This document shows, piece by piece, positions 6,277 to 36,584 of a stretch of 64,000 nt of DNA. How positions within the stretch are numbered: the stretch's first letter is position 1; the number at the start of each line of letters is the position of its first letter. This DNA is from Pelecanus crispus (Eukaryota > Chordata > Aves > Pelecaniformes > Pelecanidae): contig NC_134643.1 in NCBI RefSeq assembly GCF_030463565.1, forward strand, positions 78,241,721 through 78,305,720, given 5' to 3'. Below the pieces are notes generated by a model. The model was not told the DNA's origin. It searched no databases and saw nothing but the letters and a program-made list of their open reading frames with translations. The position numbers and the translations under genes were made by a program.

Positions 6277-7359
6277 TCACATTACAGGCTTTGACTGCTC
6301 TTCAGACTCCTTCTTCATCTTCTCATACGTGGCAGGGCAGAACTGAGAATACAGCTGAGCCAGCAAAGCCTGGGATGTGATCTCTAGCCTTGTCCCGTGG
6401 CTCAGTTTGTTCCATATGTGCACCGCATAGGTGTTCTTAAGGAGCTCGTGAAGTTCCGAGGGGCTGATTCTATCAAATAACTTCTTCCAGTCCCGCCAGA
6501 AAACAGGATATAAAGCTTCTGGGGAAAGAGCACGCACCCCTTTGCAGCTCATGTTGTTCTGGATATTACTGATGGAGCACCACCTCTTGAAGACACGCGT
6601 TAGGAGCTGCGGGCCCTGGTGCCCCCAGATCCAGCTGTTGTAGTTATCCACAAAGTCCTGCATGCAAAGCTCCATGAACTCATGCTTGGGTTGGAAGGAC
6701 AGAAAGGCCCCATTCACTACATCCTCAGACTGGATACCCAGGGCATTGGTGAGGTTCTTCAAGTTCCTAAGCACAATGAAGTCTGTGTCCAGGTAGATGC
6801 CACCAAATTTCCACATGAGGGTAATTCTGCAGGCATCAGACAGGACGGGTATGAAATAAGGCTCCCAGCGCTGTTGAGCCTGCAAGTACCACTTTGCCAG
6901 AGGCGTCCCTGAGAAAAGCTCCATCAAGTCCAGGGGACGGATTTCCACGTTGGGGAAGCAGCTCAGCAACGAGAATGCAAAGTGGCTGGGTAACGTGGCA
7001 TTCCCATTTGCCAAACCTTTCATGAGCACCACAACCTTTGTCCCAGGGTGCGTCCGGGCCGCTGACTCCACAGAGCACGTGAACAGGTAACTGGGGTTAG
7101 TTCGCTCCGAGGTCTCCACAAAAAACACATCCCCTGGGGAAGGAGGGGGCCCACCGGCAGTGGGGTGGGGAATGTAAGGCAAAACCTGAGCACACCTGCT
7201 TTGCGTAGGCACGCTGTAGAGCTGGCCCTCAGCGTCCTCCCCAGTTCTCCAGTAGAACATGACAGAGGCAAAGAACACAAATGAAAAGGTGAGGATAAAC
7301 GGAGCCCCGAGCCTGTGGCTCAGCACCATTGCGGTCAGTTTTGGCAGGCAGTTGGACAT
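6277..7359 (-). CDS. Alpha-1,4-galactosyltransferase paralogue A (A4GALT-like)
   Basis: Predicted 360-residue Golgi type II membrane glycosyltransferase that would transfer galactose from UDP-Gal in alpha-1,4 linkage to a terminal beta-galactose. A short cytoplasmic tail is followed by a hydrophobic anchor at about residues 17-37, a proline-rich stem, then the catalytic domain with the DXD motif YLDTDFIVL (DTD at 191-193) that binds metal and UDP. WKFGGIYLD and IWGHQGPQLLTRVFKRWCS match the A4GALT family. Sequons are visible at N120, N202 and N269. The coding region is one exon behind a splice acceptor at 7414-7415. I chose the start at 7359 because it aligns with copies B, C, D and the human protein (353 aa); an upstream in-frame ATG at 7407 in strong context would add 16 residues and is unique to this copy. 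It differs from D by EDV instead of KYV after the LGxQS motif. Substrate is inferred from family only. Confidence 0.9.
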   Translation of the reverse strand: MSNCLPKLTAMVLSHRLGAPFILTFSFVFFASVMFYWRTGEDAEGQLYSVPTQSRCAQVLPYIPHPTAGGPPPSPGDVFFVETSERTNPSYLFTCSVESAARTHPGTKVVVLMKGLANGNATLPSHFAFSLLSCFPNVEIRPLDLMELFSGTPLAKWYLQAQQRWEPYFIPVLSDACRITLMWKFGGIYLDTDFIVLRNLKNLTNALGIQSEDVVNGAFLSFQPKHEFMELCMQDFVDNYNSWIWGHQGPQLLTRVFKRWCSISNIQNNMSCKGVRALSPEALYPVFWRDWKKLFDRISPSELHELLKNTYAVHIWNKLSHGTRLEITSQALLAQLYSQFCPATYEKMKKESEEQSKPVM

Positions 7360-7412
7360 CCTGGGCAGTCTCGCTTCCGTCAGAGGCCGCTCTCCCAAGA
7401 CAACCATCGTGA

Positions 7413-7440
7413 TCTGAAGGGGAGAAAAGAAGAAAAAGAC
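7413..7440 (-). other. Splice acceptor of the gene A coding exon
   Basis: On the minus strand a pyrimidine tract (TTTTTCTTCTTTTCTCCCCTTC) ends in AG at 7415-7414, and the exon starts at 7413 (ATCACGATGG). The same acceptor is conserved at copies B (10347-10348), C (27430-27431) and D (36585-36586). This agrees with the known A4GALT layout of noncoding 5' exons plus a single coding exon. Confidence 0.75.
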
Positions 7441-7569
7441 ACGGACAGGCAAGGCAGCAGACCATGAGCCTGGGGACAGTGCCACAGCAGAACAGAACTC
7501 TCCTTCCTTCACCTCAGGGCAGCATGCTTAAATTAAACCTTTTGGTCATCTCTGAAACAGTCTCCTGGC

Positions 7570-9114
7570 TTCTCCGTATTGTCACAGGGCTTTGACGTCC
7601 CACAGCAGAAACTACTGCCCATCTTTGGATCCCTCTCTTTCAAACACAAAATAAGGATAAGTTTCTCTTTTCTGTACATCACAAACCAAGACTGATCCTC
7701 AGTTCTGTCCATGTTTATTGTCCATGTAAGTTGTGCTTGCCACTTGGAAGGATATACAGCATTTGACACACAAATGACATACCTCCATGGTGGTGCACAA
7801 CAAACTCTGCAAACAGCATTAGAGACCTTATCTGTCATCCTCCACAATTTCAGGTCACTCTAGACATGAGACATATATGCAAAAAACCCTAGGACGAGGA
7901 AATAGGAATGCTCCATATGAATAATCCTGGAGCTCTGTCCACAAACATTGTGTGAAACTGCTGCCCTGATGAGAGTTTTTTCTCACGATGAGAGTTTTTT
8001 CCCCTGATACACAACCTGTCCTTCCCCAAAACCAAACACAATACTAAAACCCCAATGCTGTCATCAGTTCCTGTCAAGAGGCCTCAGTATCCCAGGCTGT
8101 TGAACCAGCAGTTGCTGCCTTTTGCAATCAACCACCCTCCCCTACAGAGAGCCTGGCTCATTTTTCATGGCACTGTAGCATAGCAGAATGGATGTCTAGT
8201 GGGAGGGGAATTGATACAAGGCAGCTCTGGAGGCAGATGCAGATGACAAAGACAAGAACTGCCTAGGTAAAGACAATTTCAAAGCTGCTTCCCAACCCTG
8301 CTTCCCGGCCAAGTCCTCACTTCTACCTCCTCTGGTAGGTGGTGCTGCCTAACCCAGCTGTCACCAACCCAGGATGCAAAGGCCATGCGGGCTGTCACCT
8401 GCTCAGCTCTTCCAGTGGAATCATCTAGTGATGGATATGCAATCCCCGCTTCTCCCTACCCTTACTTCCTCTCTTCCCTCTGCAAAATGGAGGGATGGAG
8501 AGGAAGAGGTTATTAACAAGGAAGCAACAAAAAGAGAAGTCATTTTAGCTACATTCTCAGCATTAGCATCAGCATTTCTGCCCTTGCCTCCCCTTAAAGT
8601 GAAGGACAGCAGAAGCAGCACCTCCTGGGCCCACCACTGGGGCCCCCAAGGTCAATGCGCAAAAGCACATGAAGAAGAAGTGAGGAGGATCGTGGCATTT
8701 AGGACGAGAGGAAACGGCCTCAAGTTGCACCAGGGGAGGTTTAGACTGGATATGAAGAAATGCTTCTTCACTGAAAGGGTTGTCAAGCATGGGAGCAGGC
8801 TGCTCAGGGAAGTGGTTGAGTCACCATCCCTGGAGGTATTTAAAAGACCTGTAGGCATGGCACTTAGGGACATGGTTTAGTGGTGGACTTGGCACCGTTA
8901 GGTTTACAGTTGGACTCAATGATCTTAAAGGTCTTTTCCAACCTAAATGATTCTATAATTCTATGATTTCTCCTGCCTCCCTCTGCTCCACCTCCAAATC
9001 CAAATCCCCATGCTCCAGAACAGAGACCTTCAGGAAATAGCAAAGGCTTTAATCAAACAGCTGTAACCGGACAGGGAACATGGCAAAGAACCCAACTGGC
9101 ACAATGCCATCTGT
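7570..9114. other. Upstream region of gene A, partly shared with the region upstream of D
   Basis: Copy A departs from copies B and C at about 7570. The stretch 7640-8110 is instead recognisably similar to 38160-38545, upstream of D; for example ACAAACCAAGACTGA at about 7684 and 38196, and TGTCAAGAGG near 8070 and 38508. So A keeps older flanking DNA while B and C carry a different upstream block. A 17-bp direct repeat (GATGAGAGTTTTTT) sits near 7970-8000. No exon is recognised. Confidence 0.6.
8688..8971 (+). mobile_element. CR1 LINE 3' fragment
   Basis: Plus-strand CR1 3' end: the tail of ORF2 (RFRLDMKKCFFTERVVKHGSRLLREVVESPSLEVFKRP) runs into the 3' UTR and ends with ATGATTCTATAATTCTATGAT, the short-repeat tail of CR1. 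It is 5'-truncated, as usual. It is absent from unit 2, because it lies in the segment between A and B. Confidence 0.85.
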
Positions 9115-9761
9115 CATTCACCCCTGGTTGCTGCGACTGGCTCCCATACTAAACTCTCGTTGAAGCCACAAAATGACTCATCAGCTGCACCAGGAGGTTT
9201 CCAAATGCAACAGCACGGAGCCACCGCTCTCCACTAGGCACTGGGGCTTGGCGTACAGCAGAGAGGCAGACGATACACAAATCATCAGCTCTGGCTTCCC
9301 AGAATATTATTTTCTGCTGCAGCAACATGCCAGCTTGTGCTGCGGGTGTTACCCACCCTGCCTTTTACATACCTATTTCCCCCTCCCTCCACACCGCAGC
9401 CAGCTGAATCCTGCAAATCATTTTTAGCTTGGTAAGCTGTAGAAGAGAAAGCAGGTGCAGGCTTGAGGGGACAGAGCCTTTGCTGTAGAGAAGGCAGGAA
9501 AGCCTGGCTCTAATCTAACAGGGAGCAAGCTTCAAAGTTACAGGCATATTTTTAGTAAGAGGAGGAACTTCTTCTACAATTGCACCTCTACATATTTAGA
9601 AATACATTTCTGCTTCTGTACCAGATAAGAGGACATTTTAGATGCTGTATTAGCCAGTCCACTTATTTCACAAAACAAACACAGGAAATCTGGTGCCCCA
9701 GCTTCCTCTGAAACTGCAAGTACCACTCACAGAAACTGCAATAGTACTCACCTGTCCCTGT
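9115..9761 (-). repeat. Upstream block U, copy 1 (between genes A and B)
   Basis: About 650 bp that match 10550-11196 (offset 1434) and about 27633-28279. It ends at a minus-strand splice-donor sequence CAG|GTGAGTACT (last exon base 9752). Just beyond it homology stops, and the cut end of pseudogene B begins at 9778. The other two copies continue into a further exon-like stretch here, so this copy is broken at the exon edge. Confidence 0.75.
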
Positions 9762-9777
9762 AACAGGTCAGACTAGG

Positions 9778-10346
9778 GTGGGTACGAAATAAGGCTCCTT
9801 CTGGTGCTCAGGCTCCAGGTACCACTTTGCCAGAGGCGTCCCTGAGAAAAGCTCCGTCAAGTCCAGGGGACGGATTTCCACGTTGAGGAAGCAGCTCAGC
9901 AATGAGCATACTAAGTAGCTGACTAACTAGGCGTTCCCGTTTGCCAAACCTTTCATGAGCACCACGACCCTTGTCCCAGGGCGCGTCCGGGCCGCTGACT
10001 CCACAGAGCATGTGAACAGGTAACTGGGGTTAGTTCGCTCCGAGGTCTCCACAAAAAACACATCCCCTGGGGAAGGAGGGGGCCCACCAGCAGTGGGATG
10101 GGGAATGTAAGGCAAAAACTGAGCACACCTGCTTTGCGTAGGCACGCTGTAGAGCTGGCCCTCAGCGTCCTCCCCAGTTCTCCAGTAGAACATGACAGAG
10201 GCAAAGAACACAAATGAAATGGCGAGGATAAACAGAGCCCCGAGCCTGTGGCTCAGCACCATTGCGGTCAGTTTTGGCAGGCAATTGGACATCCTGGGCA
10301 GTCTTGCTTCTGTCAGAGGCCGCTCTCCCAAGACAACCGTCGTGAT
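9778..10346 (-). pseudogene. Truncated A4GALT-like pseudogene B
   Basis: The first part of the coding exon, with the splice acceptor at 10347-10348 and the conserved start at 10292. It reads through the membrane anchor and stem, then meets an in-frame TAG at 9927-9929, where the intact copies have ACG (Thr122 in copy A). Past the stop the frame is still recognisable (LDLTELFSGTPLAKWYLEP) as far as about residue 169, then homology ends at 9778. The DXD motif and the rest of the catalytic domain are missing, so it cannot be an active enzyme. It shares with copy C, and not with A or D, the patch coding EPEHQK and several 5' substitutions. A 37-bp stretch at 9901-9937 has about nine substitutions against copy C. 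Confidence 0.9.
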
Positions 10347-10549
10347 CTGAAGGGGAGAAAAGAAGAAAAAGACACGGACAGGCAAGGCAGCAGACCACGA
10401 GCCTGGGGACAGTGCCACAGCAGAACAGAACTCTCCTTCCTTCACCTCAGGGCAGCATGCTTAAATTAAACCTTTTGGTCATTTCTGAAACAGTCTCCTG
10501 GCTTCTCCAAATTGGCACAGGGCCTTCAGGTCAATGCAGAGCTGAGCTC

Positions 10550-11196
10550 ATTCACCCCTGGTTACTGCGACCGGCTCCCATACTAAACTCTCGATGAAGC
10601 CAGACAATGACTCGTCAGCCGCACCAGGAGGTTTCCAAATGCAACAGAACGGAGCCACCGCTCTCCACTAGGCACTGGGGCTTGGCGGACAGCGGAGAGG
10701 CAGACGATACACAAATCATCAGCTCTGGCTTCCCAGAATATTATTTTCTGCTGCAGCAACATGCCAGCTTGTGCTGCGGGTGTTACCCACCCTGCCTTTT
10801 ACATACCTATTTCCCCCTCCCTCCACACCGCAGCCAGCTGAATCCTGCAAATCATTTTTAGCTTGGTAAGCTGTAGAAGAGAAAGCAGGTGCAGGCTTGA
10901 GGGGACAGAGCCTTTGCTGTAGAGAAGGCAGGAAAGCCTGGCTCTAATCTAACAGGGAGCAAGCTTCAAAGTTACAGGCATATTTTTAGTAAGAGGAGGA
11001 ACTTCTACTACAATTGCACTTCTACATATTTAGAAATACATTTCTGCTTCTGTACTGGATAAGAGGACATTTTAGACGCTGCATTAGCCAGGCCACTTAT
11101 TTCACAAAACAAACACAGGAAATCTGGCGCCCTACCTTCCTCTGAAACTGCAAGTCCCACTCACAGAAATTGCAAAGAGTACTCACCTGTCCTTGC
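10550..11196 (-). repeat. Upstream block U, copy 2 (upstream of pseudogene B)
   Basis: Second copy of the block seen at 9115-9761 and about 27633-28279. It contains the minus-strand donor CAG|GTGAGTACT with last exon base 11187. Paired with the acceptor at 10347-10348 it would define an intron of about 840 bp. The sequence continues in register with unit 2 to about 12780. Confidence 0.7.
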
Positions 11197-12124
11197 TTTT
11201 CGATACACCACAGAAGTCACTGCTCGGCTGGACAAGATTTTGAAGAGGTTAGTGTCTCTGAGAGCACCTATCACTCTACAGTCTGGCACTTCCTTTTTGT
11301 GAAAAGAAATGGTGAAAGATGGAGTCTAAACACATGCAGATAACGTGCAGATCAGGGAGGATGTGACACCATACATTCAGCGACTACATTGGCTGAAAGA
11401 AGGGTCACGCAGCTGATGGGTCATGCAGCTGTGCTGTGAAGAACCCATCTAATTGGAATGAACCAGCAAAGAACAAGAAAAAAAAAAAAAGAAGGAAAAT
11501 GCTTATCGCTACACTCCAAGCTTTATACTGTGGCAGGAAACCGTTTTGCTGTTTTCTACTCCTTTGCTAAGAATTCCCAGTGCTCACGCTGCTTGGGTGG
11601 CTGCCACGAGAACTGAGCTGAGGGTTTCACAGAGCTGCCTCCTCCCACCCCAAGACTTCAGTTCTGAATACTCTGTTGAACACACACTCTTGCGACCAAT
11701 TAATTTACTCATCCATTTGGGAATAATCCTTCTTATGCCGGATACTTCGTTGAATGACTTTGCCAAATGCAGGTGTCCCTCATTTTATGACAGAGTTCCC
11801 CCTTGTCCCTGCGCTCAATGGCGGCTGACCTTCCCTTACAGAACATACGTTGACGCGTTCATAAAACACCACCTTCAGCCGTACAGCCACTAGGTTTAGG
11901 GTTTAGTGCAGTTGCTACTCAGTTGCCTGCAACAAATGGCAGGCCTATTGCTCTGCAGCTGTAGCCCTGTAGCTTCCCAGACCCCTCACCCTTCCCCAAA
12001 TCCTTCCAAGCACTGCAGCACCACGGATGGACTCGTAACATGCCAACGTTGGAAAGCACCTTAAGCTATTCCCAGCCCTTTCATCGATGGAGCTCTCCAG
12101 GCCTCCGGTCAGGCCCCATCGAGT
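11197..12124. repeat. Segmental duplication, right block of unit 1
   Basis: Matches 28280-29272 (offset 17083 rising to 17148 across a purine tract that is longer in unit 2). It is the presumed region of the upstream noncoding exon and promoter for the B/C type of gene. I see no strong TATA box or CpG island. An A-rich tract lies at about 11478-11492. Confidence 0.7.
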
Positions 12125-13565: not shown

Positions 13566-13714
13566 GAATCATAGAATGCTTTGGGTTGGAAGGGACCTTT
13601 AGAGGTCATCAAGCCCAACCCCCCCTGCACTGAGCAGGGACAGCTTTAACTAGATCAGGTCCCTCAGAGCCCCATCCAGCCTGACCTGGAATGTTTCTAG
13701 GGATGGGGCCTCCA

Positions 13715-14853
13715 CTACCTCTCTGGGCAACGTGGAACTGGAACACAGTGCTTCACCACCCTCACTGTAAAAAATTTCTTCCTTATATCCAGTCTAAATC
13801 TACCCTTCTTTAGTTTAAAACCATTACTCCTTCTCCTGTCACAACAGGCCTTGCTAAAAAGATTCCCCCCATCCTTCCTGTAGGCCCCCTTTAAGTACTG
13901 AAAGGCTGCAATAAGGTCTCCCTGGAGCCTTCCCTTCTCCAGGCTGAACAACCCCAACTCTCTCAGCCTGTCCTCGTAGGAGAGGTGCTCCAGCCCTCGG
14001 ATCATTTTTGTGGCCCTCCTCTGGACCCGCTCCAGCAGGTCCATGTCCTTCTTGTGCTGAGGGCCCCAGAGCTGGACGCCGTGCTCCAGATGAGGTCTCA
14101 CCAGAGCAGAGCAGAGGGGCAGAATCACCTCCCTCGACCTGCTGGCCATGCTTCTTTTGATGCAGCCCAGGATACGGTTGGCCTTCTGGGCTGCAAGCGC
14201 ACATTGCTGGCTCATGTCCAGCTTTTCATCCAACCCCCAAGTCCTTCTCCGCAGGGCTGCTCTCAACTCCTTCATCGCCACAGCCTTTATTGATATTCGG
14301 GGTTGCCCCAACCCAGGTGCAGGACCTTGCACTTGGCCTTCTTGAACCTCCTGAGGTTCACACAGGCCCACCTCTCCCGCTTGTCCAGGTCCCTTTGGAT
14401 GACATCTTGTCCTTCTGGTGTGTCAACTGCACCACTCAGCTTGGTGTCACCTGCAATCTTGCTGAGGGTGCACTCGATCCCACTGTCTATGTCATTGATG
14501 AAGATATTAAACAGCACCAGTCCCAGTACAGACCCCCGAGGGACACCACTTGTCACCGGTCTCCATTTGCACATCGAGCCGTTGACCACTACCCGCTGGA
14601 TGCGACCATCCAGCCAATTCCTTATCCACCAAACAGCGTACCCATCAAATCCATATCTCCCCAATTTAGAGAGAAGGATCTTGTGGGGGACTGTGTCAGA
14701 GGCTTTACGGAAGTCCAGATGGATGACATCCGTCTTCCAGTCCCCAGGGACTTCATCTGACTGCCACGACTTTTCAAGTATTAGGGAGAGTGGCTTGGCA
14801 ACTACATCAGCCAATTCCCTCGGGACTCTGGGATGCATCTCATCAGGTCCCAC
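13715..14853 (-). pseudogene. CR1 reverse transcriptase remnant (unit 2)
   Basis: Frame 14287-14853 carries [24 protein letters not shown], the RT block [22 protein letters not shown], and a damaged catalytic motif: IAGDTKLSG stands where CR1 enzymes have FADDTK, so the second-position aspartate is lost. A second frame (13715-14371) continues with [20 protein letters not shown] and [14 protein letters not shown], the typical C-terminus. The overlap of the two frames shows a frameshift. This explains most of the long minus-strand open frames here. Confidence 0.85.
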
Positions 14854-17418
14854 AGACTTGTGTACATTCAGGTTCCTCGGGTAGTCTCAGACCTGATCTT
14901 CCCTTACAGTGGTAGGGGCTTTATCCCCCCCGGTCCCCATCTTGCGGTCCATCGACTTGGGAGGGGTGAAAGAGAGGTTGCTGGAGAAGACCGAGGCAAA
15001 AAAGTTGTTGAGTACCTCAGCTTTCTCCTCATCTGTTGGTACTAGGTCACCATTCTTGTTCATCGGGGGGTTTGCTTTCTTTAACCTTCCTTTTCCGGTT
15101 GACATACCTGTAGAAGCCCTTCTTGTTATTCTTTACATCCCTTGCCAAACTCAGCTCCAGCCGTGCCTTGGCCATCCTGACCACATCCCTACACAACCAG
15201 GCAGCTTCCCTGTACTCTTCCCAGGACACCTGTCCCTGCTTCCACTGCCTGTGCAGTTCCCTCTTGCTCTTTAGTTTGACCAGCATGTCTCGACTCAGCC
15301 ATGCTGGCCTCTTCCCTTCCTTGCTTGATTTCTTACACCTGGGGACTGAGAGCTCTTGTGCTCTATGGAAGGTGTCCCTACAGATCTGCCAGCTCTGTTC
15401 CGTTCCCCTGTCCTGAGGACCGTTTCCCACGGGGTCTTTCTGACTAACTCCTTGAAGAGCTGGAAGGTGGTCTCCTAAAATTTGGAGTCCTGGCTGTACT
15501 TCTCACTTTTCCCATGTCCCTCAGGAGCAAGATCTCCACCAATGCGTGATCACTGCAGCCCAGGCTGCCTCCAGTCTTGACATCACCAATGAGCTCACTT
15601 GCATTGGTGACCATCAGGTCCAGTATTGCATCCTCTCGGGTAGGGGTGCCTGCTACCTGGCTTAGGAAGTTAGCCTCAATGCATTCAAGGAATTTCCTGG
15701 ATTGCCTACAGCTCGCCGTGTTGCTTTTCCAGCAAATGTCGGGGTGCTTGAAGTCCCCCAGTAGGACGAGAGTCTGCAAGCGCAAAGCCTCCTGGAGCTG
15801 GAGGAAGAAGGCTTCGTCAGTAGGCTCCCCTTGATCAGGCGGCCTGTAGTAGACACCAACCACAAGGTTCCCTTTGGTGCCTCTGTCTCTGATTCTCACC
15901 CATAAGCTTTCGACCTGCTCGTGGCTATTCTTCAGGGACAGCTCTTCACACTGTATCGATTTCTTTATGTAGAGGGCAACGCCTCCGCCCCCACCTTCCT
16001 CACCTGTCCCTTCTGAACAGCCTGTAGCCATCAATAGCCACATTCCAGTCACGGGATTCGGCCCACCAAGTTTCAACGATGGCAATCAGGTCATAGCTTT
16101 CTAGCAGCACAGTAGCTTTCAGCTCCTCCTCTTTGTTCCCCATGCTGTGTGCGTTCGTGTAGAGGCATTTCATCTGGGCTGTTGGCCATGTCGCCTTCTC
16201 AGTGGAACATCCCTTGTTTCACTTGTGGTGTTTCACAGAGGTTTCCTTGTTGGCTCCTACTACCTCTGGAGCCCCCAGCTCATCTCCGCGAGACTATGTC
16301 AGGGCTACGTCAGAGAATGAAACGTTACATTCTCAGTTCACGCTGAAAGCAATTACCATTGCTTTTACGTAATTACATTACAACTGTGTAATTCTCAGAT
16401 TATGACTTCTGTGGAAGTTCTCAGACCTCCAGGCCTAGACCTTAGCATAACCAGTATAAACAACTGTCTTAGCCAGAGGGGATCAGATGCTGGGGAAGCA
16501 TAGGAGAGTTGCAGCTCTCAGCATGGGACCCAGTGCTAGAGGCATCGAGACTGGGTCAGGGCTGGAGAATCTGGTACAGCTGAGATGGGCCAGAATATGT
16601 CACGAACATCCAAATCTAGCTTCACAGGCTAAATGAGAGCATACCGTGGTATACCTTCCCTCCTTTCTTTGTCTTATCATTGCTCGTCTTTGCTGCACAA
16701 TTTCAGTGCAACTTCAGCTACCTTATGCCATTAAACTATTCAAAAAGCTACATTTATGGTACATCAAGTAGAAACATGGAAACATAGCTCTAATCAGCCT
16801 TGGAAGTGATTGCACCGGTCCCAGTTGTCTTTAGGAGAATGAGCCAAGTACTGCTGAGTTTAGTGATGTCCCTCCAAGTAAGTGTGTGGACATATGAACA
16901 GAAAAACACTGGAGCGGGGGTGTAAATTTGCCACAAATTCAGTAACAAAAGCAGAGAGGAAAAAGGTCCGGCAAAGTGCTGCTGCATACCCAGGTAGCTG
17001 CTAGGGGTCTTGAACAGTATCACTGATCACAAGCAGCCTGACAGGACTATTTTGGGGACCCACCAGAAAACAGCTGAAGATCCCCATTTTCTCCAGATTT
17101 ACATCGCCAACAAGAGTAGAAGAGGTAAGATTTGACAATGCCAGCATTCAGTGGGGGACTGATCAGTCTGTTAGGCATGGAAGAGCAGAGCGGTGCCAAA
17201 CAAGGATGAATCCGCCAGCTAATTCCCCTAGCATTTAGGGGAATTAGTATTTAGCATTTTAGCAACAGCTTTAGAGCTCCTCCTTTTGACCCTAGAGAGA
17301 ATGGCAGACCAAGCATGTGCAAATATTTGAGGTGAGATGGGAGTAAGCATTGTAATTGTAATGGGTAGATCAGACCAAGCCATAAGATACTGCAGCTATA
17401 TACAGAGGGTGCTTAAGC
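14514..17418. repeat. Segmental duplication, left block of unit 2
   Basis: Partner of 1-2905 with about three substitutions in 2.9 kb. This is the least diverged part of the duplication. Confidence 0.95.
14887..16173 (-). pseudogene. CR1 ORF2 remnant: endonuclease plus linker (unit 2)
   Basis: Near-identical copy of the 374-1660 remnant, with the endonuclease frame at 15444-16085 and the linker frames at 14887-15105 and 15047-15430. One visible coding difference is arginine for serine in the segment ESLWVxIRDRG. Not a host gene. Confidence 0.8.
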
Positions 17419-20400
17419 TCTCTTAACTGCATCTTTTGTACTTAACCACAACTTCATCTTTCCAGAGTGAACCTTGCAATATCCAATTTCACTTACATGT
17501 TTTTTAGAACCAAGTTTTCTCCTGAAATAAAAGAAAGAAAAGTGAAAATACCCGCTCGTATAGCTCTAATGCAGTGCTGGATAGACACTCCGTGGGGTAA
17601 CAAGAATTAAAAGCAAGCCACAGCAAAGAGGCAGAGGATAGATCGCAAGGTTCTGCAAAAAATAAACAGATTGTGGGGAGAAATGATATGGCAGATTTTA
17701 TAGCTGTTGATTCCCAAACCACTGTACAGAACATGGCCGTAGAGGTGACGGCATCTCGCTGAAGTTATCCAGAAAAAAAAAAAATACAGACTCTGGCTGT
17801 TATTTGCAACAGAGAGAATCAACAATGTATGTAAGTAATGACCACAAACAGAAAATCACATAGCCAGTCATGGCAACATCATTCAGCTTCAATTCAGCTT
17901 CTGTCTCCCTAAATATAATAAGCAGTAGTCTAAGATTAGTGGAAAATGGTCAGTAATGCTATTACACTTAGATAGAGTAGGAAATAACTTGAATGAATTA
18001 AGATAGAGCTGTAACAGCTTCCAAAAAAACCCAGGCATGCTCAATTTCAGTTGAGCTTGCTCAGTAGCTTCATCAAATCTAAAAAACCACTAGCAAGAGC
18101 TGTTATTTTCTCAGACAGTAACACTTTGACAGGATTAGCTTGCACCCAGTGACAGTGCTATCTGAGAATGGTGGCATATGAATTCGTAAGAGAGAAGCGG
18201 TTCTTCTAGTGCTACCTGTGCTGTTAGCTACAGCCACAATGTAAGTTACTTCCTGAGCAAGCTCAGAGAGAGTGCAGTGGTGCACCAGAACAGTGCATGC
18301 AAGCACTAACGCCCGAGCCAACCTTTGCAGCAGGAAACGACCAAGTTTAGATGTAAGTATTGCCACTAAGAAGACTCTGAACCCCACCGACGGCTGCCAG
18401 ACCCTAATACCAAGTGTAGCGATGGCTCACTATCAAAGATACCCTGCCACCAAGGAGGGGACTGTGGCCCAGTGCTGTGCCACTCAGCTCTCCCTTCCCC
18501 CAGGAATTAAGACTTCTGCCAGGACTAAGAAGAAATACTAGACTTGTGGTTTCTATCAGACCACCACTGAGGTGCAGGGCAAGGAAAAAGCTCGTTATTT
18601 GTTCACCCTCATGTGAAATCACAAAGAATTAGCACTTCCTCAGCTTCACTCCTTGGGGTCTCTCCACACTACTCTTACGCACAAGAGAGCTGGTTCGTGG
18701 AAAACCCAGTATTAGACTCGGTGCGTTGTATTGTTTGGCTGCTTCTGAAAAACAGCAGGTAAACTTCCATTTTGAATACGTACAGATACAACAGGGAATG
18801 ATGGACTGACAAGTAAAGGCAGTTAGTAGTAGTCACAAGGCTAACGTACCACAGAGAAGAGATCTCTTTCCTTTTATGACAAGAGCGATTGCATCTTTAC
18901 TTTAACGAGTACGTGGCAAGGCAGACTGTGTCATGCTGAGTGGTATGGAGCACCTGAGTCACTGCCAGGAGTGGGTGAGCCAGGCACAGCCATGCACTTG
19001 TTAGTTCCAGCAGCACAGACGAACCTCTGCTACAAGCGTGCAGCAAGAGTTCAAGACCAAAAGAAACAAGTTGCACCAGCTGGCAACCTGGCTGCTAGCA
19101 GCAGCCTCGCAAAGCGACAAGGTTAAGAAAGCAAGTCAGAGCTCAGTTTCAGACTCACCCTGGAGTTTTCTGTCCCTTGCTATTTTTGTATCCTTCCAGA
19201 CTTACGGAACTGGTTGGGGTTACTGGAAATGGACCAAACCCATAGATTTGCAGTTCAAGTGTAATCCCTAGCTGTGAGCACTAGCTTTCACCTGGGCTTT
19301 AAAATTTCCTAGGAACCATCCCGAGCCCATGTTTGGGTGAATGCCCAGCTGAAGTTATAGCAGCCCCAGACCCAGCATGGCACAAGAGCTAACCCAGAAC
19401 TCCCCATGTCCAGCGTGGAACTAGCCTTTCATGTCAACTCTTAGGTGCCAACCCCAGTACATAGTCAGCTCTGCTGCTCACTTCCCCAGTAGAAGGAGGC
19501 CATATAGTTTATGTAGGCTTAGCTGGTGCCCTTGTCCTCAACTTCAGAGCTGCTCTCTCTCTGGTTTTTATTCCCGGCCTGGCTCAGCTCTGGTAATGAC
19601 AGGTTCTTTCCACACCATCCCATGTCTATGGGGAGCGGCAGGAAACATCAGTTCCCAGCATCAGAAACAGCCAGAGAACAGTGGACTGAGTGGGGTGTTG
19701 CTGAGCTAACTCCAGAATCACGTGGGAAGGGAGGGATGGGAGGATCATATCAGAGGGTGGACAGATGAAGCAGGGAGCATGACTTGCTCCAGCGCTGCTG
19801 TAGGATCCTTCAGATCCCACAATGAAGTGACCATAAAGCAACATGCCAATGGATCACTTCACTAAGCACCTTGTCCATAAAAGGACTGCTGCAGAGAGTC
19901 CTCTGCCCAAAAGGTCTGGGCCTGCCTGCAGTTTAGATCATACTCTGCAGTGAAAGGTGAAACTGATGTGCCCGTGACATAGCGGGTAGAAAGGACTAGG
20001 GAAAAGGTCTGCAGGAAACGATCTCTCATGGCTACAAGGATCCAAACTTATTCTGGTATGCACTAGCTCTTTTCCTCATCTCCTGCAAAGACATTATGAA
20101 CATGAGGATTAATGCAAGGCAGAGAGGCTGCATTTCACTCACAGCACTGATACTGGCACAGCTACACAGATCCTATCTTTGCCTCAGAGTTAACGTTCTC
20201 CCAAGAAAACGGCACAAGCTGGAAAAAAAGATCAAATGTGATTAAAACACAAGAGGGAGGGGAAAGAAAAAAAAAATAAAACATGAAGTGATAAATCAAT
20301 CAGCATTTCCCACAGTTGAACCACAGGAGCTGAGATTGCCTTTAAAACATGCTGTATTTCCCTATAATGCAGGTAAGGGTCAGAGACCCCTGAGAGATGA

Positions 20401-22888: not shown

Positions 22889-23399
22889 TTCTCCACCCCT
22901 TATTCTATGCCATCTATTTCACGCTCAGGTCCCACACTATCCAATACATCTTCATTAACCACCACCTCCTTTCCCACCTTTTGATATAATACACAGATAT
23001 CACTCCCTTAGTCTGTGGACCGCCCCTGTGAAATGTCTGTAATATGTCCACAAATGTCCACAAAATATCCATTGAGTTCATTAGACTTTGGGCTGCATCT
23101 GTTATGGTGGTCACTCAGGACAGGAGAGGTGGAGTGTTACGTGGTATTACTGGGCACTAAAGCCAGCTTGGCTCAGGTCACTGCAGCACTTGCACTGCTT
23201 CTTGTAAGGTTTGTCCTCCATTGTTTCAGGTGCTTCCTGCTCTAGTAATTCCTATAATATCCAACTCAAGTCATGGGTTACAACAATTTAAAGGTATTTC
23301 CATTACAGTCTCCACCCCTGGCCCCCTTGGACCAGACCAAAGGGGTTAACACTGCAGTGAAGTCCTCCCCTTGCCCCTGCTCCGACTTGAACTTATCCA

Positions 23400-23995
23400 C
23401 AGACTGCAGTCCCTTAGGGGTGTACCTGCTCCAAGTGGAGCCTTATCTATGAGCCACAGTCTCTCCAGGGGTATACCTGCTGCAGCATAGACTTATGCAC
23501 AGCCACAGTCACTTCGAGGTGCACCTGTTCCAGCACGGCCTTCTCCATGGGCCACAATGCCTTCAGAGATTTACCTGCTCCAGCATGGCCTTACCCACAG
23601 CCACAGTCCCTTCAGAAGTAAACCTCCTCCAACATGGCCTTACCCATGGCTGCGGTCCCTCTGGGGGAGTACCTCCTCTGTCATGGGCTTATCCATGGCC
23701 ACATACTTTGAGGTGCTCCGGCACAGCCTCATGCACAGCCACTGATGCTTCAAAGTGTACCTGCTGCAGCATGGATTTATCCACAGCCACAGACACTTCG
23801 AGGTGTACCTTCTCCAGCATAGACTTATCCTTGGGCCACAAACCCTTTGGAGGTATACCTGCTGTGGCACAGTCATAATGACGGCCACAGATGCTTGGAG
23901 GTGTTCCTGCTGTGGCATGGGCTTATCTACAGCCACAGACGCTTTGGGCTGTCCTGCTTCTGCATGGACTCATCCACAGGTCACAGTCCCTTCAA
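23400..23995. repeat. Degenerate minisatellite, period about 48-49 bp
   Basis: About a dozen diverged units, each starting near GCCACAG and containing an ACCTGCTSCAGCATGG-like core and a CTTATCCACA-like end. Examples start at about 23454, 23503, 23552, 23601, 23744 and 23781. One unit (about 23697-23740) is shorter. The array lies inside the ERV and makes several open frames with repeated Q/W-rich peptides that are artefacts of the repeat. Confidence 0.8.
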
Positions 23996-24345: not shown

Positions 24346-24353
24346 AAAAGGAC

Positions 24354-26292: not shown

Positions 26293-27375
26293 TCACATTA
26301 CAGGCTTTGACTGCTCTTCAGACTCCTTCTTCATCTTCTCATACGTGGCAGGGCAGAACTGAGAATACAGCTGAGCCAGCAAAGCCTGGGATGTGATCTC
26401 TAGCCTTGTCCCGTGGCTCAGTTTGTTCCATACGTGCACCGCATAGGTGTTCTTAAGGAGCTCGTGAAGTTCCGAGGGGCTGATTCTATCAAATAACTTC
26501 TTCCAGTCCCACCAGAAAACAGGATATAAAGCTTCTGGGGAAAGAGCACGCACCCCTTTGCAGCTCATGTTGTTCTGGATATTACTGATGGAGCACCACC
26601 TCTTGAAGACACGCGTTAGGAGCTGCGGGCCCTGGTGCCCCCAGATCTCACTATTGTAGTTATCCACAAAGTCCTGCATGCAAAGCTCCATGAACTCATG
26701 CTTGGGTTGGAAGGACAGAAAGGCCCCATTCACTACATCCTCAGACTGGATACCCAGGGCATTGGTGAGGTTCTTCAAGTTCCTAAGCACAATGAAGTCT
26801 GTGTCCAGGTAGATGCCACCAAATTTCCACATGAGGGTAATTCTGCAGGCATCAGACAGGACGGGTAAGAAATAAGGCTCCTTCTGGTGCTCAGGCTCCA
26901 GGTACCACTTTGCCAGAGGCGTCCCTGAGAAAAGCTCCGTCAAGTCCAGGGGACGGATTTCCACGTTGGGGAAGCAGCTCAGCAACGAGAATGCAAAGTG
27001 GCTGGGTAACGTGGCATTCCCGTTTGCCAAACCTTTCATGAGCACCACAACCCTTGTCCCAGGGTGCGTCCGGGCCGCTGACTCCACAGAGCACGTGAAC
27101 AGGTAACTGGGGTTAGTTCGCTCCGAGGTCTCCACAAAAAACACATCCCCTGGGGAAGGAGGGGGCCCACCAGCAGTGGGGTGGGGAATGTAAGGCAAAA
27201 CCTGAGCACACCTGCTTTGCGTAGGCACGCTGTAGAGCTGGCCCTCAGCGTCCTCCCCAGTTCTCCAGTAGAACATGACAGAGGCAAAGAACACAAATGA
27301 AATGGCGAGGATAAACAGAGCCCTGAGCCTGTGGCTCAGCACCATTGCGGTCAGTTTTGGCAGGCAGTTGGACAT
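26293..27375 (-). CDS. Alpha-1,4-galactosyltransferase paralogue C (A4GALT-like)
   Basis: Intact 360-residue paralogue with the same layout as copy A: anchor at about 17-37, DXD at 191-193 (YLDTDFIVL), sequons at N120, N202 and N269, and IWGHQGPQLL in the C-terminal half. The start at 27375 aligns with A, B and D; there is no upstream ATG in the exon between the acceptor (27430-27431) and this start. Against A the striking changes are residues 160-165 (EPEHQK for QAQQRW), W243E and M146T, while most of the remaining exon is 98-99% identical. The 5' part resembles pseudogene B and the 3' part resembles A, so it may be a recombinant. It is probably a Golgi galactosyltransferase; a shifted acceptor range is inference. 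Loss of a tryptophan conserved in D and human A4GALT could also mean weaker activity. Confidence 0.9.
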   Translation of the reverse strand: MSNCLPKLTAMVLSHRLRALFILAISFVFFASVMFYWRTGEDAEGQLYSVPTQSRCAQVLPYIPHPTAGGPPPSPGDVFFVETSERTNPSYLFTCSVESAARTHPGTRVVVLMKGLANGNATLPSHFAFSLLSCFPNVEIRPLDLTELFSGTPLAKWYLEPEHQKEPYFLPVLSDACRITLMWKFGGIYLDTDFIVLRNLKNLTNALGIQSEDVVNGAFLSFQPKHEFMELCMQDFVDNYNSEIWGHQGPQLLTRVFKRWCSISNIQNNMSCKGVRALSPEALYPVFWWDWKKLFDRISPSELHELLKNTYAVHVWNKLSHGTRLEITSQALLAQLYSQFCPATYEKMKKESEEQSKPVM

Positions 27376-27429
27376 CCTGGGCAGTCTCGCTTCCGTCAGA
27401 GGCCGCTCTCCCAAGACAACCGTTGTGAT

Positions 27430-28269
27430 CTGAAGGGGAGAAAAGAAGAAAAAGACACTGAAAGGCAAGGCAGCAGACCACGAGCCTGGGGACAGTGCCA
27501 CAGCAGAACAGAACTCTCCTTCCTTCACCTCAGGGCAGCATGCTTAAATTAAACCTTTTGGTCATTTCTGAAACAGTCTCCTGGCTTCTCCAAATTGGCA
27601 CAGGGCCTTCAGGTCAATGCAGAGCTGAGCTCATTCACCCCTGGTTACTGCGACCGGCTCCCATACTAAACTCTCGATGAAGCCAGACAATGACTCGTCA
27701 GCCGCACCAGGAGGTTTCCAAATGCAACAGCACGGAGCCACCGCTCTCCACTAGGCACTGGGGCTTGGCGTACAGCAGAGAGGCAGACGATACACAAATC
27801 ATCAGCTCTGGCTTCCCAGAATATTATTTTCTGCTGCAGCAACATGCCAGCTTGTGCTGCGGGTGTTACCCACCCTGCTTTTTACATACCTATTTCCCCC
27901 TCCCTCCACACCGCAGCCAGCTGAATCCTGCAAATCATTTTTAGCTTGGTAAGCTGTACAAGAGAAAGCAGGTGCAGGCTTGAGGGGACAGAGCCTTTGC
28001 TGTAGAGAAGGCAGGAAAGCCTGGCTCTAATCTAACAGGGAGCAAGCTTCAAAGTTACAGGCATATTTTTAGTAAGAGGAGGAACTTCTACTACAATTGC
28101 ACTTCTACATATTTAGAAATACATTTCTGCTTCTGTACCGGATAAGAGGACATTTTAGACGCTGCATTAGCCAGGCCACTTATTTCACAAAACAAACACA
28201 GGAAATCTGGCGCCCTACCTTCCTCTGAAACTGCAAGTCCCACTCACAGAAATTGCAAAGAGTACTCAC
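27430..28269 (-). other. Predicted 5' intron of gene C (block U, copy 3)
   Basis: The minus-strand donor CAG|GTGAGTACT has its last exon base at 28270, and the acceptor AG is at 27431-27430, giving an intron of 840 bp. Both sites are strong, and the donor is kept in all three U copies. The upstream noncoding exon would lie above 28270; its 5' end cannot be fixed from sequence. The block matches 10550-11196 and 9115-9761. Confidence 0.55.
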
Positions 28270-28279
28270 CTGTCCCTGC

Positions 28280-30720: not shown

Positions 30721-32081
30721 TCATTCAGTCCTGACATGTATTCCATGGATGTGGTGATGCAGAAGAGACTGTGGTACGCATCCCCCACAAGGAGGGATTA
30801 CAGTGTAGAGAAACATCCCCAAGTTCCTCTTACCTGTAGCCAGATGCAGAAATTAATTTTGGTTTGCTTCAAACTGATCTCTGAACTCCCTTTCAATCTC
30901 TCATCTCCTACTGACCTTCTGCCTCTCTAGCAGGCTTCCTGCTCCTTCTACAGTTCGGGGGAAAAAAAAAATGTTGGTAGCTTTAATATCTTTTGTTAAT
31001 TGTTTTTCAAACAACGTTTTCTATAGCCTAATGGTGTTTTCATATTTAACTTGCCACACTTTATGTGCCTACCTAATTTCCCCCCCTGGAACTTTCTTAC
31101 TTCTCATACCTCTACCAGCATACTGCAGTGCCATGGCAGCTGCTATTTGGCCCCATCATTATACACAAATTTAAAGGTCAAGATCTCAGCTTGAGCTGTA
31201 AAGGCAGGGTGCAGCTGAAGTGACTTCCTCCTGTAGTTTTCCATTCTGGACTACACCTATTCATCCACGTTCCAGGCATGGTTACACAGAAGGTACCAGA
31301 GAGGCCACAAGCCAAGTGCACACAGGGAATGGTCACAAACACTTTTGGAGATGAACCTGAAGTACATAAGAAAGACCAGAGTGCCCATGTTCACAAATGG
31401 CATATCCAAACAGCATGTGGAGAGCTTTGGTTTTCCTCTTCTCTCCTGATGAGGACAAACCAGCCCTAGGCAGACCTCAGCTCCCAACACGTATGTAATT
31501 AAGGCAGGTAACTGCACTTTCCCCCAAGAAGGGCACTCTTAACCTTCTTTGCACCATAGCCTTCCTGGACTGTGGGGGGGAGGGAGAAGAAACAGGGAGA
31601 AGAACAGGGGAACAAAGAGCCCTACAGAGTATTACTACTTACCACACATCCTAGATCCCCCCAGCACAAGAGCTCCTGGCATAGGAGCGCTCTCAGCCAG
31701 CAGAGAGAAAATAATCATCATTCAGTTTCTTCCCAGGAGACCACGTCCAGGATTACCCTACTGATCCTTCCTTACTCCTGTTGCACTGTCCAATTCTGCG
31801 TCTCCAACCCCCACCCCTGGTTTCTCTCCTTGATGTGCTGCACACCTGGGTACCAGCTAACCTTCATGAGCTCAAGGACAAAGAAGACAGGGCAAGAAAC
31901 AGCTAGTGCCTTCTCACCACTTCCCATCATCATTGACTGCGTATCAGCAATGAAGAAAGGACAGGCAACTATTTTACACCTCAAGGGAAAACTGTTTCCC
32001 TGCCTCTTGACTTGAGGAGTCACAATAAAACTCCTCTGCACACCAGACCCCACCAGTCCTTTCACAGCCTCTCAAAATGCT
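30721..32081. other. Gene-free stretch between C and D
   Basis: Single-copy sequence with short open frames only. I recognise no exon, RNA gene or repeat family. Confidence 0.5.
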
Positions 32082-32156
32082 GCCCTGGACTCCAGGGTCT
32101 TTCGATCTCAAGGTCCCTTCCAACCCAAAGCATTCTATGATTCTATAATGCATTCT
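32082..32156 (+). mobile_element. CR1 LINE 3' tail fragment
   Basis: The plus strand reads GGTCCCTTCCAACCCAAAGC then ATTCTATGATTCTATAATGC, the usual CR1 3' end with its 8-bp tail repeats. Only about 75 bp remain. Confidence 0.75.
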
Positions 32157-35100
32157 ATTCTATGATCAGGCTCTGAAAGGCTGTGAAAATGAATGGCTGC
32201 AGGACAAGCTTTCCACTTTTAGGTCTACAAGAGCACAGACACTGTTACTACTAAAGGAGGCTGTAGCCCATCACCCAGGGAAAAAGTAACACAATTTCTC
32301 ATGGAGTTTCCTATTCCATAACATCCAGACCTTCAGAGTGAGACTAAAATGCCTTGCTTCAGATAGATTGCAGGTCATGAGTGATGGGGCAATACCTAGT
32401 TGGATTAGGAATCAGTACCACACACTGTGCTTTCCTCTGTTCCCTCTGCTCAAGTCCTAAAGATAGCATGTAGTCATGGTCCACAGAGCCTTCTTTCCAC
32501 ATGTGCTTATGCTCAACTTGTCTCATGTTCATTCCATGCTTTTAATTCTAGTGAGTCACTTCAGGACACAACTTTAAAATACTTTTCTGCATAATAACTA
32601 ACAGATTGCTCAGACCTACCACCAACGCCTTGCAGAACAAAATGGAACATCTTGGCAGAAAGAAGTAAGAGTAAAAACTGTATTTATTTTTCTTTCACAA
32701 GACAAAGGGGAAAAGGCCAAAGGCTGCTTTGGTTTGATTCTCTCCTTATCAAACCTCGGAACATTGACTCTACAAGGGAAAAAAAAACCAAAGAAAAACA
32801 ACAACAAAAAAACCACTCCACTTATCCAAAAAGGCACTTTCCTAGAATAAGCAGTGGTACATCAAGCCAGATATTAATTGCAGTGGGTCCCAAACACTTC
32901 CATCATCAGTTCATGGTATTGCCACAGTAGAGTCCTCTGTTATGCCTTTATGATCACCAACCATCTCTGATAGGGATTCCTAGCTCACTAAGACTTCTGT
33001 TGTTTAGCCCAAAGGTCCCAAAACAGAAGGAACCAGTAGAAGGAGAAACCATGCCTCACTGACCACACACTAGGCCAGGGCTGACAATTTTGCACTGCTT
33101 CTAAAAAAAGCAGTTAAAAAAACCCACAGGGTAGTAACAGGGAATGTAGGGAGTGAAAACAGCATCCATTTATACCACTTAGTGTGTTGAAGAATGCTTA
33201 TAGAGTCAGGAAAATCTACTCTTTCCCCACAAAGTCTTTGTTCTTAAAGAAGTTCAGTGTTGGGAGAGCTGCAGACATTCCAAATCCTGAATGCCTCCAG
33301 AATATACCATAAAGCTGGGCAAAACAAAGGGGCAGCACTACATACATACACGCATGTGGTGCCAGCCACAGGAAGGGTGTTTCCAACACCTTCTTCACTC
33401 CAGAGTAGCTACTTGTGCACTGACCTCGCACCCTGCCCACAGGGTGTGACTCACAGGCAGGTAGCTTTCAATCAAAGGAGCACTGGCCTCCGATCAACAC
33501 CAGACAGCTCAGGAAAAAGAAAAAAAAAAAAAAAAAAAAAGGCCGCACCCTCCTTAACTTTCCACGGTCATGTTCCCTGAGGGACAGGGAACTGTTTTGT
33601 AAAAGTGATGGGCAATTTTTCTTTCTAATTTTTGTCATCAAAGAAGAGACAAATAAACCTGAGACAAACGGCAAAATGTTGCATGCACAGTCTTTTATGT
33701 TTTTGACCATTGCCTTGGCTAAACCAAGCAAACTTCACATTGCTTATGGTTGACCTGGGAAATAGAAGAGGCCTCAGACAACTGCAGATCTAGAAATCAT
33801 TTGAGTCACACTCAGAGGACTTGCAGAGAGCACCATGTGAAAGAGCTGTCACTTTGGGGCCAGGTGACACTGAAGATCTGACTGACTCGTGGTCATCAAA
33901 GGGGCCACTGGACCACCCCACTGCTGTTCCTAGGCAAAAGGAGAGGAGGCACACTGGAGGCAGAAAAGATTTTACAGTGAGATCATAATCTCTTAGTAGT
34001 GTAGGAGAGGGGATGGCCGATGCTCTGCCCATCTGTATTAACCCTATCGCAGTGCCAAGCTCATGTGCCTCAGCAATCCCCTTTATAGAGTGTGGTGGGG
34101 ACCAGATGTAATCATGCTGATGGTCTTGACCTTATTCTTTTTTCTCACTTCTCCTTCTCCATTATTTTCCGACAAGAACTGTAAGAACATCAATACGTCC
34201 TTTTGGACCATCAAGGCAAGGGACGAGTTTTCTGCCACAGTTTGTCCAACAAACTTGCCTCTGTCATGGGAACCCTCAAAGGCACAACACAGCCTTGCAA
34301 GAGATATGTTAACTTTCTCAACTGCAGTTCAAGAAGATGCTCAGGGAGAAGAGTAAATCTTTCCACTGCCCTCCACAGGACCTCCCAGAAGAGATTTGTA
34401 CTCCCAGACAGTGAATTGCAGGAGTACTCCAGGCTACTTGAAGAGGTCCACCATAAATGACTCATAAATGGACTTGAATTTAGACAGCACGGGTTCCCTA
34501 CCAAGCTCTCTGTAACCTTGGAAATACTTGGAAATACCATGCCTTTCTTTAGGATCCATCCAAGTGCTGAAAGATCTGGTGCATCTTAGACACTGTTACG
34601 GATATTTGATTACAGAGACAAACTCAGTGTAAAAGATAGTTCAGCTCTTCCAGTGTCAGGTGCAACTTAAGGAGTGATTTGGACGAGCTCTCCTGCTTAT
34701 TGCAGGGTGTTAATTTGCCACTACTACAAAATAAAACACGGCTGCACAAGAGCTCCTTCTAAACAATGACCTGGCCTCAGATCCTCTCATGTTCTGATTT
34801 GCACCAAATTTCCATGTCTTCAGATCTATGACATCAAACAGAGACTGCAGCATCCTTCTCCCTGCTCAAACCAGACATGAGAAAGTCTTCTCCACCAAAG
34901 CCTTCAGAAGAGAAGGGAATGAAAATAAAGAGGTTGCTTTAGCCCGCCCTTTCTCCTCTGTTTTCCCCTACATTTTTCTCAGGACACCTCTTCTAGCACA
35001 TCCCTAACTTCCCTCTCAGTTGCTGTTCTTTGCTCTCCCATCCTTTTGTTGCTTTGAGGACTGCACTTCAGAAGTCCTGAGAATCAGGCATGCAGATATG

Positions 35101-35456
35101 CATTTCTACAAAAGCCTCTTCCAGGTTTACAGCCATAGAAAGGGGCCTTACTCCTCTGAAAGGCTGATGGAGGCTGCCACAAGTGGCACAGCATTTGCTT
35201 TCCTCCTGAGACTTCTCTATCTGACCAAGCAGAGCAGAAGAAAGGTCCTACAGAGAAACAAAATGCTGCTGGTAGGCAGTTAAAGTCAAGACAAAGAGCT
35301 GCACAGACATCGGCTGAAGCTACAGGCTCCACCTACACCCTAAAATTGGCTTTTATCCTCAACTCCCACCACCTGACTTCAAAAGCAGGTTCATTTGTGA
35401 TGGAACAGTTGGAGAGTTGTGGGCTCCCGGGCAACATCTCTTAGCTGACCCTTGAG
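32157..35456. other. Gene-free stretch downstream of D
   Basis: Includes the presumed 3' untranslated region of D near 35456 and below. No well-placed AATAAA is obvious within the first kilobase past the stop. An A run of about 21 bases lies at 33519-33540. Small open frames at 34063-34460 have no recognised domain. Confidence 0.45.
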
Positions 35457-36530
35457 TCACTGTCGTTCAGAGTCCTTCTTCATGATATCATACGTGGCAG
35501 GGCAGAAGTGAGAATGCAGCTGAGCCAGCAAAGCCTGGGATGTGATCTCCAGCCTTGTCCCTTGGCTCTTCTTGTTCCATATATGCACTGCATAGGTGTT
35601 ATTGAAGAGGTGGTGCAGCTCCGAGGAGCTGACCACTTCGAAGTATTTCTTCCAGTCCTGCCACCGAATGGGATAAAAAGCCTCACGGGGCAGAGCACTC
35701 ACTCCTTTGCAGCTCGTACTGCTCCGAAGACTCCTGATGGAGCACCACTTCTTGAAGACACGCGTTAGGAGCTGTGGGCCCTGGTGCCCCCAGATCCAGC
35801 TGTTGTAGTTCTCCACAAAGTCCTTCATGCAAAGCTCCATGAACTTGTGTTTGGGCTTAAAGGACAGAAAGGCCCCATTCAGTACATACTTGGACTGGGT
35901 ACCGAGCACATTGGTGAGGTTCTTCAAGTTCTTAAGCACAATGAAGTCTGTGTCCAGGTAGATGCCACCAAACTTCCACATGATGGCAATTCTGCAGGCA
36001 TCAGACAGGACGGGTAAGAAATAAGGCTCCCAGCGCTGTTGAGCCTGCAAGTACCACTTTGCCAGTGGTGTTCCAGAGAAAAGCTCCAGCAAGTCCAGGG
36101 GACGGATTTCCACATTAGGGAAGCAGCTCAGCAATGAGAAGCCCCAGTGGTTGGGTAATGAGGCATTCCCGTTTGCCAAACCTTTCATGAGTACCACGAC
36201 CTTTGTCCCAGGGTGCATCCTGGCTGCTGACTCCACAGAGCAGGTGAACAGGTAACTGGGGTTAGTTCGCTCCGAGGTCTCCACAAAAAACACATCCCCT
36301 GGGGAAGAAGGAGGCCCACCAGCAATGGCGTGGGGAGGAGAAGGCACAGAGTGAGCACAATGGATTTCAACAGGCAAGCTGTAGACATGGCCCCTGCCTT
36401 TACGGTCCTCCGTGATTCTCCAATACAATATGATGGAGGCAAAGGACATGAACTTAAAGGTGAGGATAAACAGAGTCCTGAGCTTGTGGCTCAGCACCAC
36501 CCTGGTCAGTTTTAGCAGGCAGCTGGACAT
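35457..36530 (-). CDS. A4GALT: Alpha-1,4-galactosyltransferase (lactosylceramide 4-alpha-galactosyltransferase), copy D
   Basis: Predicted 357-residue type II Golgi enzyme. In other vertebrates A4GALT transfers Gal from UDP-Gal to lactosylceramide to make globotriaosylceramide (Gb3, Pk antigen), the first step of globo-series glycolipids. A membrane anchor lies at about 17-37 (LFILTFKFMSFASIILYW), the catalytic domain has DXD YLDTDFIVL (DTD at 193-195), and the acceptor-region motif LGTQSKYVLNGAF keeps the glutamine (Q212) equivalent to human Q211. NSWIWGHQGPQLLTRVFKKWCS, QDWKKYFE and WNKKSQGTR follow the mammalian protein more closely than copies A and C do, so I take this as the conserved gene. 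Start at 36530 by alignment; an ATG three codons upstream (36539) is possible. The single coding exon starts at 36584 behind AG at 36585-36586. The promoter is probably far upstream (CpG island near 47 kb). Confidence 0.93.
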   Translation of the reverse strand: MSSCLLKLTRVVLSHKLRTLFILTFKFMSFASIILYWRITEDRKGRGHVYSLPVEIHCAHSVPSPPHAIAGGPPSSPGDVFFVETSERTNPSYLFTCSVESAARMHPGTKVVVLMKGLANGNASLPNHWGFSLLSCFPNVEIRPLDLLELFSGTPLAKWYLQAQQRWEPYFLPVLSDACRIAIMWKFGGIYLDTDFIVLKNLKNLTNVLGTQSKYVLNGAFLSFKPKHKFMELCMKDFVENYNSWIWGHQGPQLLTRVFKKWCSIRSLRSSTSCKGVSALPREAFYPIRWQDWKKYFEVVSSSELHHLFNNTYAVHIWNKKSQGTRLEITSQALLAQLHSHFCPATYDIMKKDSERQ

Positions 36531-36584
36531 CCTGAGCATTCTCGTTCCCGTCAGAGCCTGCTCTCCCAAGACAACCGTCGTGAT

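Follow-up and report, generated by a model that had tools for sequence, protein, structure and literature searches.

Mammals have only one A4GALT gene, whereas the corresponding gene of the pelican Pelecanus crispus, copy D in the present study, sits inside an array. How large is this array, how did its members arise, and do they differ in function? The window analyzed herein, i.e., the whole stretch of 64,000 nucleotides, is C1:78241721-78305720 of the P. crispus genome. It contains four copies on its minus strand, with a transcription order of D, C, B, and A. Copy A (6277-7359) is an intact 360-aa gene with a frame open to 7407, the conserved ATG at 7359, and an exon start at 7413; its product is identical to P. 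crispus protein P0001 across 360 aa. Copy B (9768-10292) is a truncated pseudogene that is interrupted by a TAG at codon 122 and lacks the 3' half, its homology stopping at 9768 (approximately codon 175). Copy C (26293-27375; exon start at 27429) is a second intact 360-aa gene, and copy D (35457-36530) is an intact 357-aa gene with a single coding exon. The original prediction of three intact A4GALT frames and one broken copy on one strand was confirmed at this position by the open reading frames and Pfam matches.

A search of the pelican's own genome with D as the query returned at least nine matches, seven of which fell in the array. Three of these lie to the left of the window, at C1:78221943-78237499 (window coordinates of about -19777 to -4221), and are the intact copies E and A', both open for 360 codons, and the truncated copy B'. 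The same search found no truncated copy between E and A'. The remaining two matches were pieces on contig C9 with 36 and 40% identity to D, which we take to be A4GNT. The description as a cluster of four was correct for the window only; the array comprises at least five intact and two truncated copies across approximately 56 kb. We consider it probable that these alpha-1,4-galactosyltransferase genes form a tandem array in which A4GALT1 is accompanied by A4GALT2 copies that were multiplied in the pelican, with exchange between copies.

Copies A, C, and D all passed Pfam PF04572 and PF04488 (155-164 and 59-64 bits against cut-offs of 22.3 and 23, respectively), and the amino-acid identities of A and C to D (76.6 and 74.4%) were far above chance. 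The retention of the core motifs in A and C was also as predicted: both have sequons at N120 and N202 and a DTD at 191, the equivalents in D being N122, N204, and 193, and a hydrophobic 19-mer starting at residue 17 forms the N-terminal anchor in all three. The sequons of human A4GALT are at N121 and N203 in the accessible text of PMC11546571. An AlphaFold model of C (pLDDT 74) had glycogenins and bacterial glycosyltransferases as its top Foldseek matches (TM-score by query of approximately 0.4); the matches of this structure search were of the generic GT-A kind and revealed no acceptor site, and no PDB relative was found by sequence.

A splice acceptor (CCCCTTCAG before ATCAC) is common to every copy in the window, including B, and lies 54 bases 5' of the conserved ATG; in D, it occupies 36584-36590 on the minus strand, with cttcag at 36590-36585 and the exon start at 36584. 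In several annotated bird proteins from other species, other sequence is joined directly ahead of I-T-T, i.e., at this acceptor, which together with its position indicates that the coding part is one terminal exon, as is that of mammalian A4GALT. Patterns from the N-terminus of P0001 revealed no convincing first exon for any copy. The nearest CpG island upstream of D, approximately 10 kb away (46401-47600), is a candidate promoter; a second island lies at 55901-56600, and around the other copies (A, B, C, A', and E) no island passed the same thresholds. The window also contains a plus-strand tRNA-Ile (AAT) gene at 57378-57451 and a 48-base unit in 12.5 tandem copies at 23392-23994, between the A/B and C genes.

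The relationships among the copies were examined in a protein tree. Two protein searches returned 312 and 172 proteins; the best 120 of each were listed, comprising 131 different proteins. The tree had 93 rows, namely, 90 of the 131 proteins and A, C, and D; the other 41 proteins were further passerines, some squamates, and four unnamed rows. D adjoined Phalacrocorax carbo (91/59) and the Harpia and Tyto rows, outside the A4GALT2 clade, among clade-1 rows that extend to Galloanserae and reptile A4GALT and whose internal branching is weakly supported. A, C, and P0001 grouped together (100/99), then with Balaeniceps (100/95), within a clade (100/99) whose 64 rows all come from Neoaves and which includes Columba guinea, Patagioenas, Caloenas, and Alopecoenas. 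No galliform, anseriform, or reptile row occurred in this clade, and the matches listed contained no palaeognath. Of 18 clade-discriminating sites, defined without the pelican A and C rows, 18/18 are in the clade-1 state in D, and 15/18 are in the clade-2 state in A and C. On these grounds, D is assigned as an ordinary A4GALT1 and A and C as A4GALT2-type genes; A' and E are also of the A4GALT2 type. The phylogeny that had been proposed as a check thus upheld D as the conserved gene and A and C as holders of shared residues that D lacks. Mean identity to the turtle Trachemys was 66.2% for 63 clade-2 rows and 77.7% for 12 clade-1 rows, indicating that clade 2 changed faster.

Some rows did not fit either clade neatly. 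Nine passerine rows in the tree (among P0075-P0107) look mosaic, clade-1 states being frequent toward the N-terminus and the C-terminal part having clade-2 states, and none of the nine falls inside a clean clade 1. Apparent A4GALT1/A4GALT2 chimeras were also noted in Bubo (P0057), Alopecoenas (P0061), Uria (P0065), Guaruba (P0073), and Bucco (P0077); these five may be artefacts, some gene models being partial or of low quality. The half-gene trees, constructed with FastTree, had mostly weak supports.

The evidence for exchange between copies is concentrated in a short stretch before the DXD. Across the ungapped columns of 6277-7590, 34 positions distinguish A from C; at 25 of them A matches D, at eight C does, and at one neither does. 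Ten consecutive differences within 20 bases (6866-6885) all have A identical to D, a run that was reached in 0/20000 shuffles and 0/20000 random placements. A and A' differ at 13/1080 coding positions, 12 of which lie within a tract of 72 bp on the minus strand (6852-6923; core 6866-6885, 20 bp, codons 159-165), and their eight residue differences all fall in codons 146-170. Between A and E, no difference occurs in the tract (0/76) or in the adjacent 570 bases on its 3' side (0/570), and A' and C have the same tract sequence. The encoded segment is QAQQRW in D, E, and A, and EPEHQK in A' and C and, by nucleotide, in B and B'. Where the tract ends is uncertain: the same base is found in D, E, and A at 6923, but at 6852 (codon 170), E and A share a base absent from D, A', and C, and the first base of codon 146 in D is unlike that in A and C. 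The D-like tract in A and E appears to reflect non-reciprocal exchange between copies. Since Balaeniceps has QPEHQK, QAQQRW in A and E was most simply copied from D. In the model of C, which is of moderate confidence overall, the segment lies in a short helix preceding the helix that leads to the DXD (pLDDT 88 in block 161-170). Changed active-region residues had been taken as a sign of new or split function; this was not supported, and part of the change goes in the opposite direction, the segment of A beside the DXD matching that of D.

We then asked whether the extra copies are maintained by selection. By the Nei-Gojobori method, dN/dS against D was 0.48-0.52 overall for A, A', C, and E (A 0.48, C 0.52), 0.33-0.37 in codons 76-350 (A 0.33, C 0.37), and 1.04-1.36 in the N-terminal 75 codons. 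The dN/dS check therefore gave a divided answer: the values in codons 76-350 indicate constraint on the catalytic portion of the A4GALT2 lineage, and the N-terminal values exceed 1. The comparison of A with C (0.81, or 0.64 outside the tract; 25 differences) has too few sites and is compatible with neutrality. Values for E against A', A, and C were 0.32-0.58, also from few sites. The neutral expectation was taken from the duplicated blocks, whose non-coding sequence has diverged by 1.7% substitutions and 0.14% indels per base. Approximately 1.8 disabling changes are then expected over A and C under full neutrality, and the probability of none is 0.16-0.17; the open frames of A and C, which had been read as a pointer to function, are thus weak evidence of it.

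These results leave room for the view that the extra copies arose recently, are redundant, and are drifting to loss, that D and perhaps one A4GALT2 matter, and that the tract is neutral. The neutral chance of two open frames, the A-C ratio, and the already broken state of B and B' all accord with this view, as does a substitution in C, which has Glu where 84/89 other rows have Trp. QAQQRW also occurs in seven A4GALT2 rows from other birds, including two parrots, and gull A4GALT2 rows have QSYHRW; the accessible text of PMC3602017 cites parrots and gulls to illustrate the lineage whose glycoproteins carry Gal-alpha-1,4-Gal. With QAQQRW and QSYHRW both found in groups that have the glycoprotein epitope, the tract is unlikely to determine which acceptor is used. 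Against drift to loss stand the four A4GALT2 copies that are still open and the lower dN/dS of E, with the few sites noted above. We regard drift to loss as a serious possibility that falls short of being probable.

The change in C is part of a cluster found in C alone (26647-26655, minus strand), in which four changes in six bases (26648-26653) convert N-S-W to N-S-E. Conversion from elsewhere in the window was considered as its source and rejected, the pattern having matched C alone. At D-numbered site 217, A and C share Val in place of the Leu of 89/89 other rows, and at site 129 they share Phe in place of the Trp of 84/89. From the near-invariant Trp lost in C and the Val in both, we speculate that A and C may be weak enzymes.

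The duplications themselves are recent. A and C are 95.6% identical in amino acids and differ at 25 of 1080 nucleotides (97.7% identity in the coding frame); they are, by this measure, recent duplicates, and their description as divergent does not hold between the two. Unit identities across the array are 99.2-99.4%. A distance of 14513 bases separates the A'B' unit from the AB unit; the two have 66 substitutions over approximately 18.8 kb (approximately 0.35%), concentrated in patches, and the E and A' units lie 11559 bases apart with 99.2% identity. The left end of the 14.5-kb tandem unit (1-2908) is 99.86% identical to 14514-17421; both blocks contain retrotransposon endonuclease fragments, which we take to be CR1. 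A second copy of the upstream flank (9114-9757, minus strand; approximately 96-97% identity to 10548-11192 and 27631-28278) is joined to the broken end of B, and B therefore seems to be a partial tandem duplication. The approximately 1.5 kb immediately upstream of A (7591-9113) is absent upstream of C. A plus-strand 3' fragment within it had no Pfam match and is presumably CR1-like.

The patchy divergence of the A'B' and AB units fits either conversion after a recent duplication or the tandem assembly of two haplotypes. In the latter case, part of the array (A'/B' against A/B) would be a false duplication of the assembly, the true array would be smaller, and the tract difference would be allelic. 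A divergence of approximately 0.35% is near ordinary bird heterozygosity; the first 4 kb has no substitution beside patches with 9-16 per kb, and B and B' differ at only 6/766 positions. However, E, A', and A lie at unequal offsets (11559 and 14513), the own-genome search revealed no truncated copy between E and A', and C and D are clearly separate loci. Among the matches listed, Pluvialis, Balearica, and Columba guinea each have two A4GALT2 proteins on equal-sized contigs, and Colius has one A4GALT1 and one A4GALT2. We consider a false duplication rather unlikely and the copies probably all real loci.

In the history that we favor, duplication and exchange in a real array, A4GALT2 would have arisen as a duplicate, found in Neoaves only among the rows compared, that changed faster than A4GALT1. 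The pelican lineage would then have multiplied it by tandem duplication, leaving E, A', and A 11.6 and 14.5 kb apart, and a partial duplication would have produced the truncated B type. Non-reciprocal exchange would have continued, giving A and E the D-like tract in codons 159-165, while A' and C kept the A4GALT2 version. A more far-reaching proposal, that the array is a segment-exchange system in which A4GALT1 gives tracts beside the DXD to some A4GALT2 copies and thereby makes their acceptor ranges slightly different, appears doubtful to us. If true, one bird would have several Gal-alpha-1,4-Gal transferases with differing versions of one segment, and segment exchange would also have made the mosaics in the owl, dove, auk, parrot, puffbird, and passerine rows. 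The A/A' pair offers a natural experiment, since with eight differing residues the effect of the segment on acceptor choice is directly assayable. That the D-like segment of A arose without gene conversion, by independent point mutation or as retained ancestral sequence, is highly improbable: the presence of QAQQRW in A4GALT1 and A4GALT2 of several land birds may mark an older state, but the EHQK version is found in Balaeniceps, C, A', B, and B', A and A' have a single coding difference outside the tract, and independent mutation was rejected in view of the 10/10 match to D.

Gal-alpha-1,4-Gal on glycoproteins distinguishes Neoaves from mammals and the remaining birds, and bacterial adhesins and toxins bind it. 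The array suggests how the enzymes for it originated, namely, by the A4GALT1/A4GALT2 split and subsequent local expansion. On egg-white glycoproteins, the epitope is present in Neoaves and absent from ratites and Galloanserae (PMC3602017, available text), a distribution that the A4GALT2 clade fits as regards Neoaves and Galloanserae, all of its rows among the matches listed being Neoaves. The main text of PMC5526940, an array study of egg white, contains neither "pelican" nor "Pelecan" insofar as it was accessible. D would cap lactosylceramide, a function taken from its family. By homology with the pigeon enzymes, the A4GALT2 copies, A and C among them, would be active largely on glycoproteins. 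The suggested equivalence of A or C to a pigeon enzyme was supported by phylogeny in that pigeon-family rows share their clade; the assayed Columba livia enzymes P and M would be placed in this clade through those rows, and the glycoprotein function would follow by homology.

Tandem A4GALT copies in birds are already in print, in the accessible parts of the zebra finch (PMC4377847) and pigeon (PMC8466213) reports. No report of exchange between A4GALT copies was found in the open-licence literature, nor was a paper on A4GALT with pelican or A4GALT with gene conversion in birds. According to the former report, zebra finch chromosome 1A has three complete tandem copies, A4GALT-1, -2, and -3, approximately 8 kb apart, and no transcripts of the songbird copies were detected in the tissues examined. 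The pelican array is similar in its complete tandem copies; in contrast to the nine mosaic passerine rows, it has a clean A4GALT1 and a separate A4GALT2. D resembles human and avian A4GALT (A4GALT1, Gb3/CD77 synthase; PMC11546571, accessible text) in its single coding exon, DTD, sequons, and anchor. Among the compared proteins, Glu at the human Q211 position occurred in 8/63 clade-2 rows and 2/9 passerine rows (P0004, P0006, P0009, P0013, P0015, P0028, P0029, P0052, P0079, and P0081), and in 0/18 clade-1 and reptile/platypus rows and 0/3 mosaic rows. Q211E broadens the acceptor range of the human enzyme. The closest parallel is the pigeon, for which the available text of PMC8466213 mentions "up to seven" A4GALT genes and describes P, acting mainly on glycoproteins, and M, acting on glycoproteins and glycolipids, with 93% nucleotide identity. 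Pigeon P and M and pelican A and C are both pairs of close recent duplicates, with pigeon-family rows in the Neoaves clade of A and C, whereas in the tree the pelican copies represent a duplication of their own. At the site equivalent to human Q211, the pelican copies have Q and pigeon M has E (PMC8466213, same text). Unlike pigeon P and M, two of the four pelican A4GALT2 copies have the A4GALT1-like tract.
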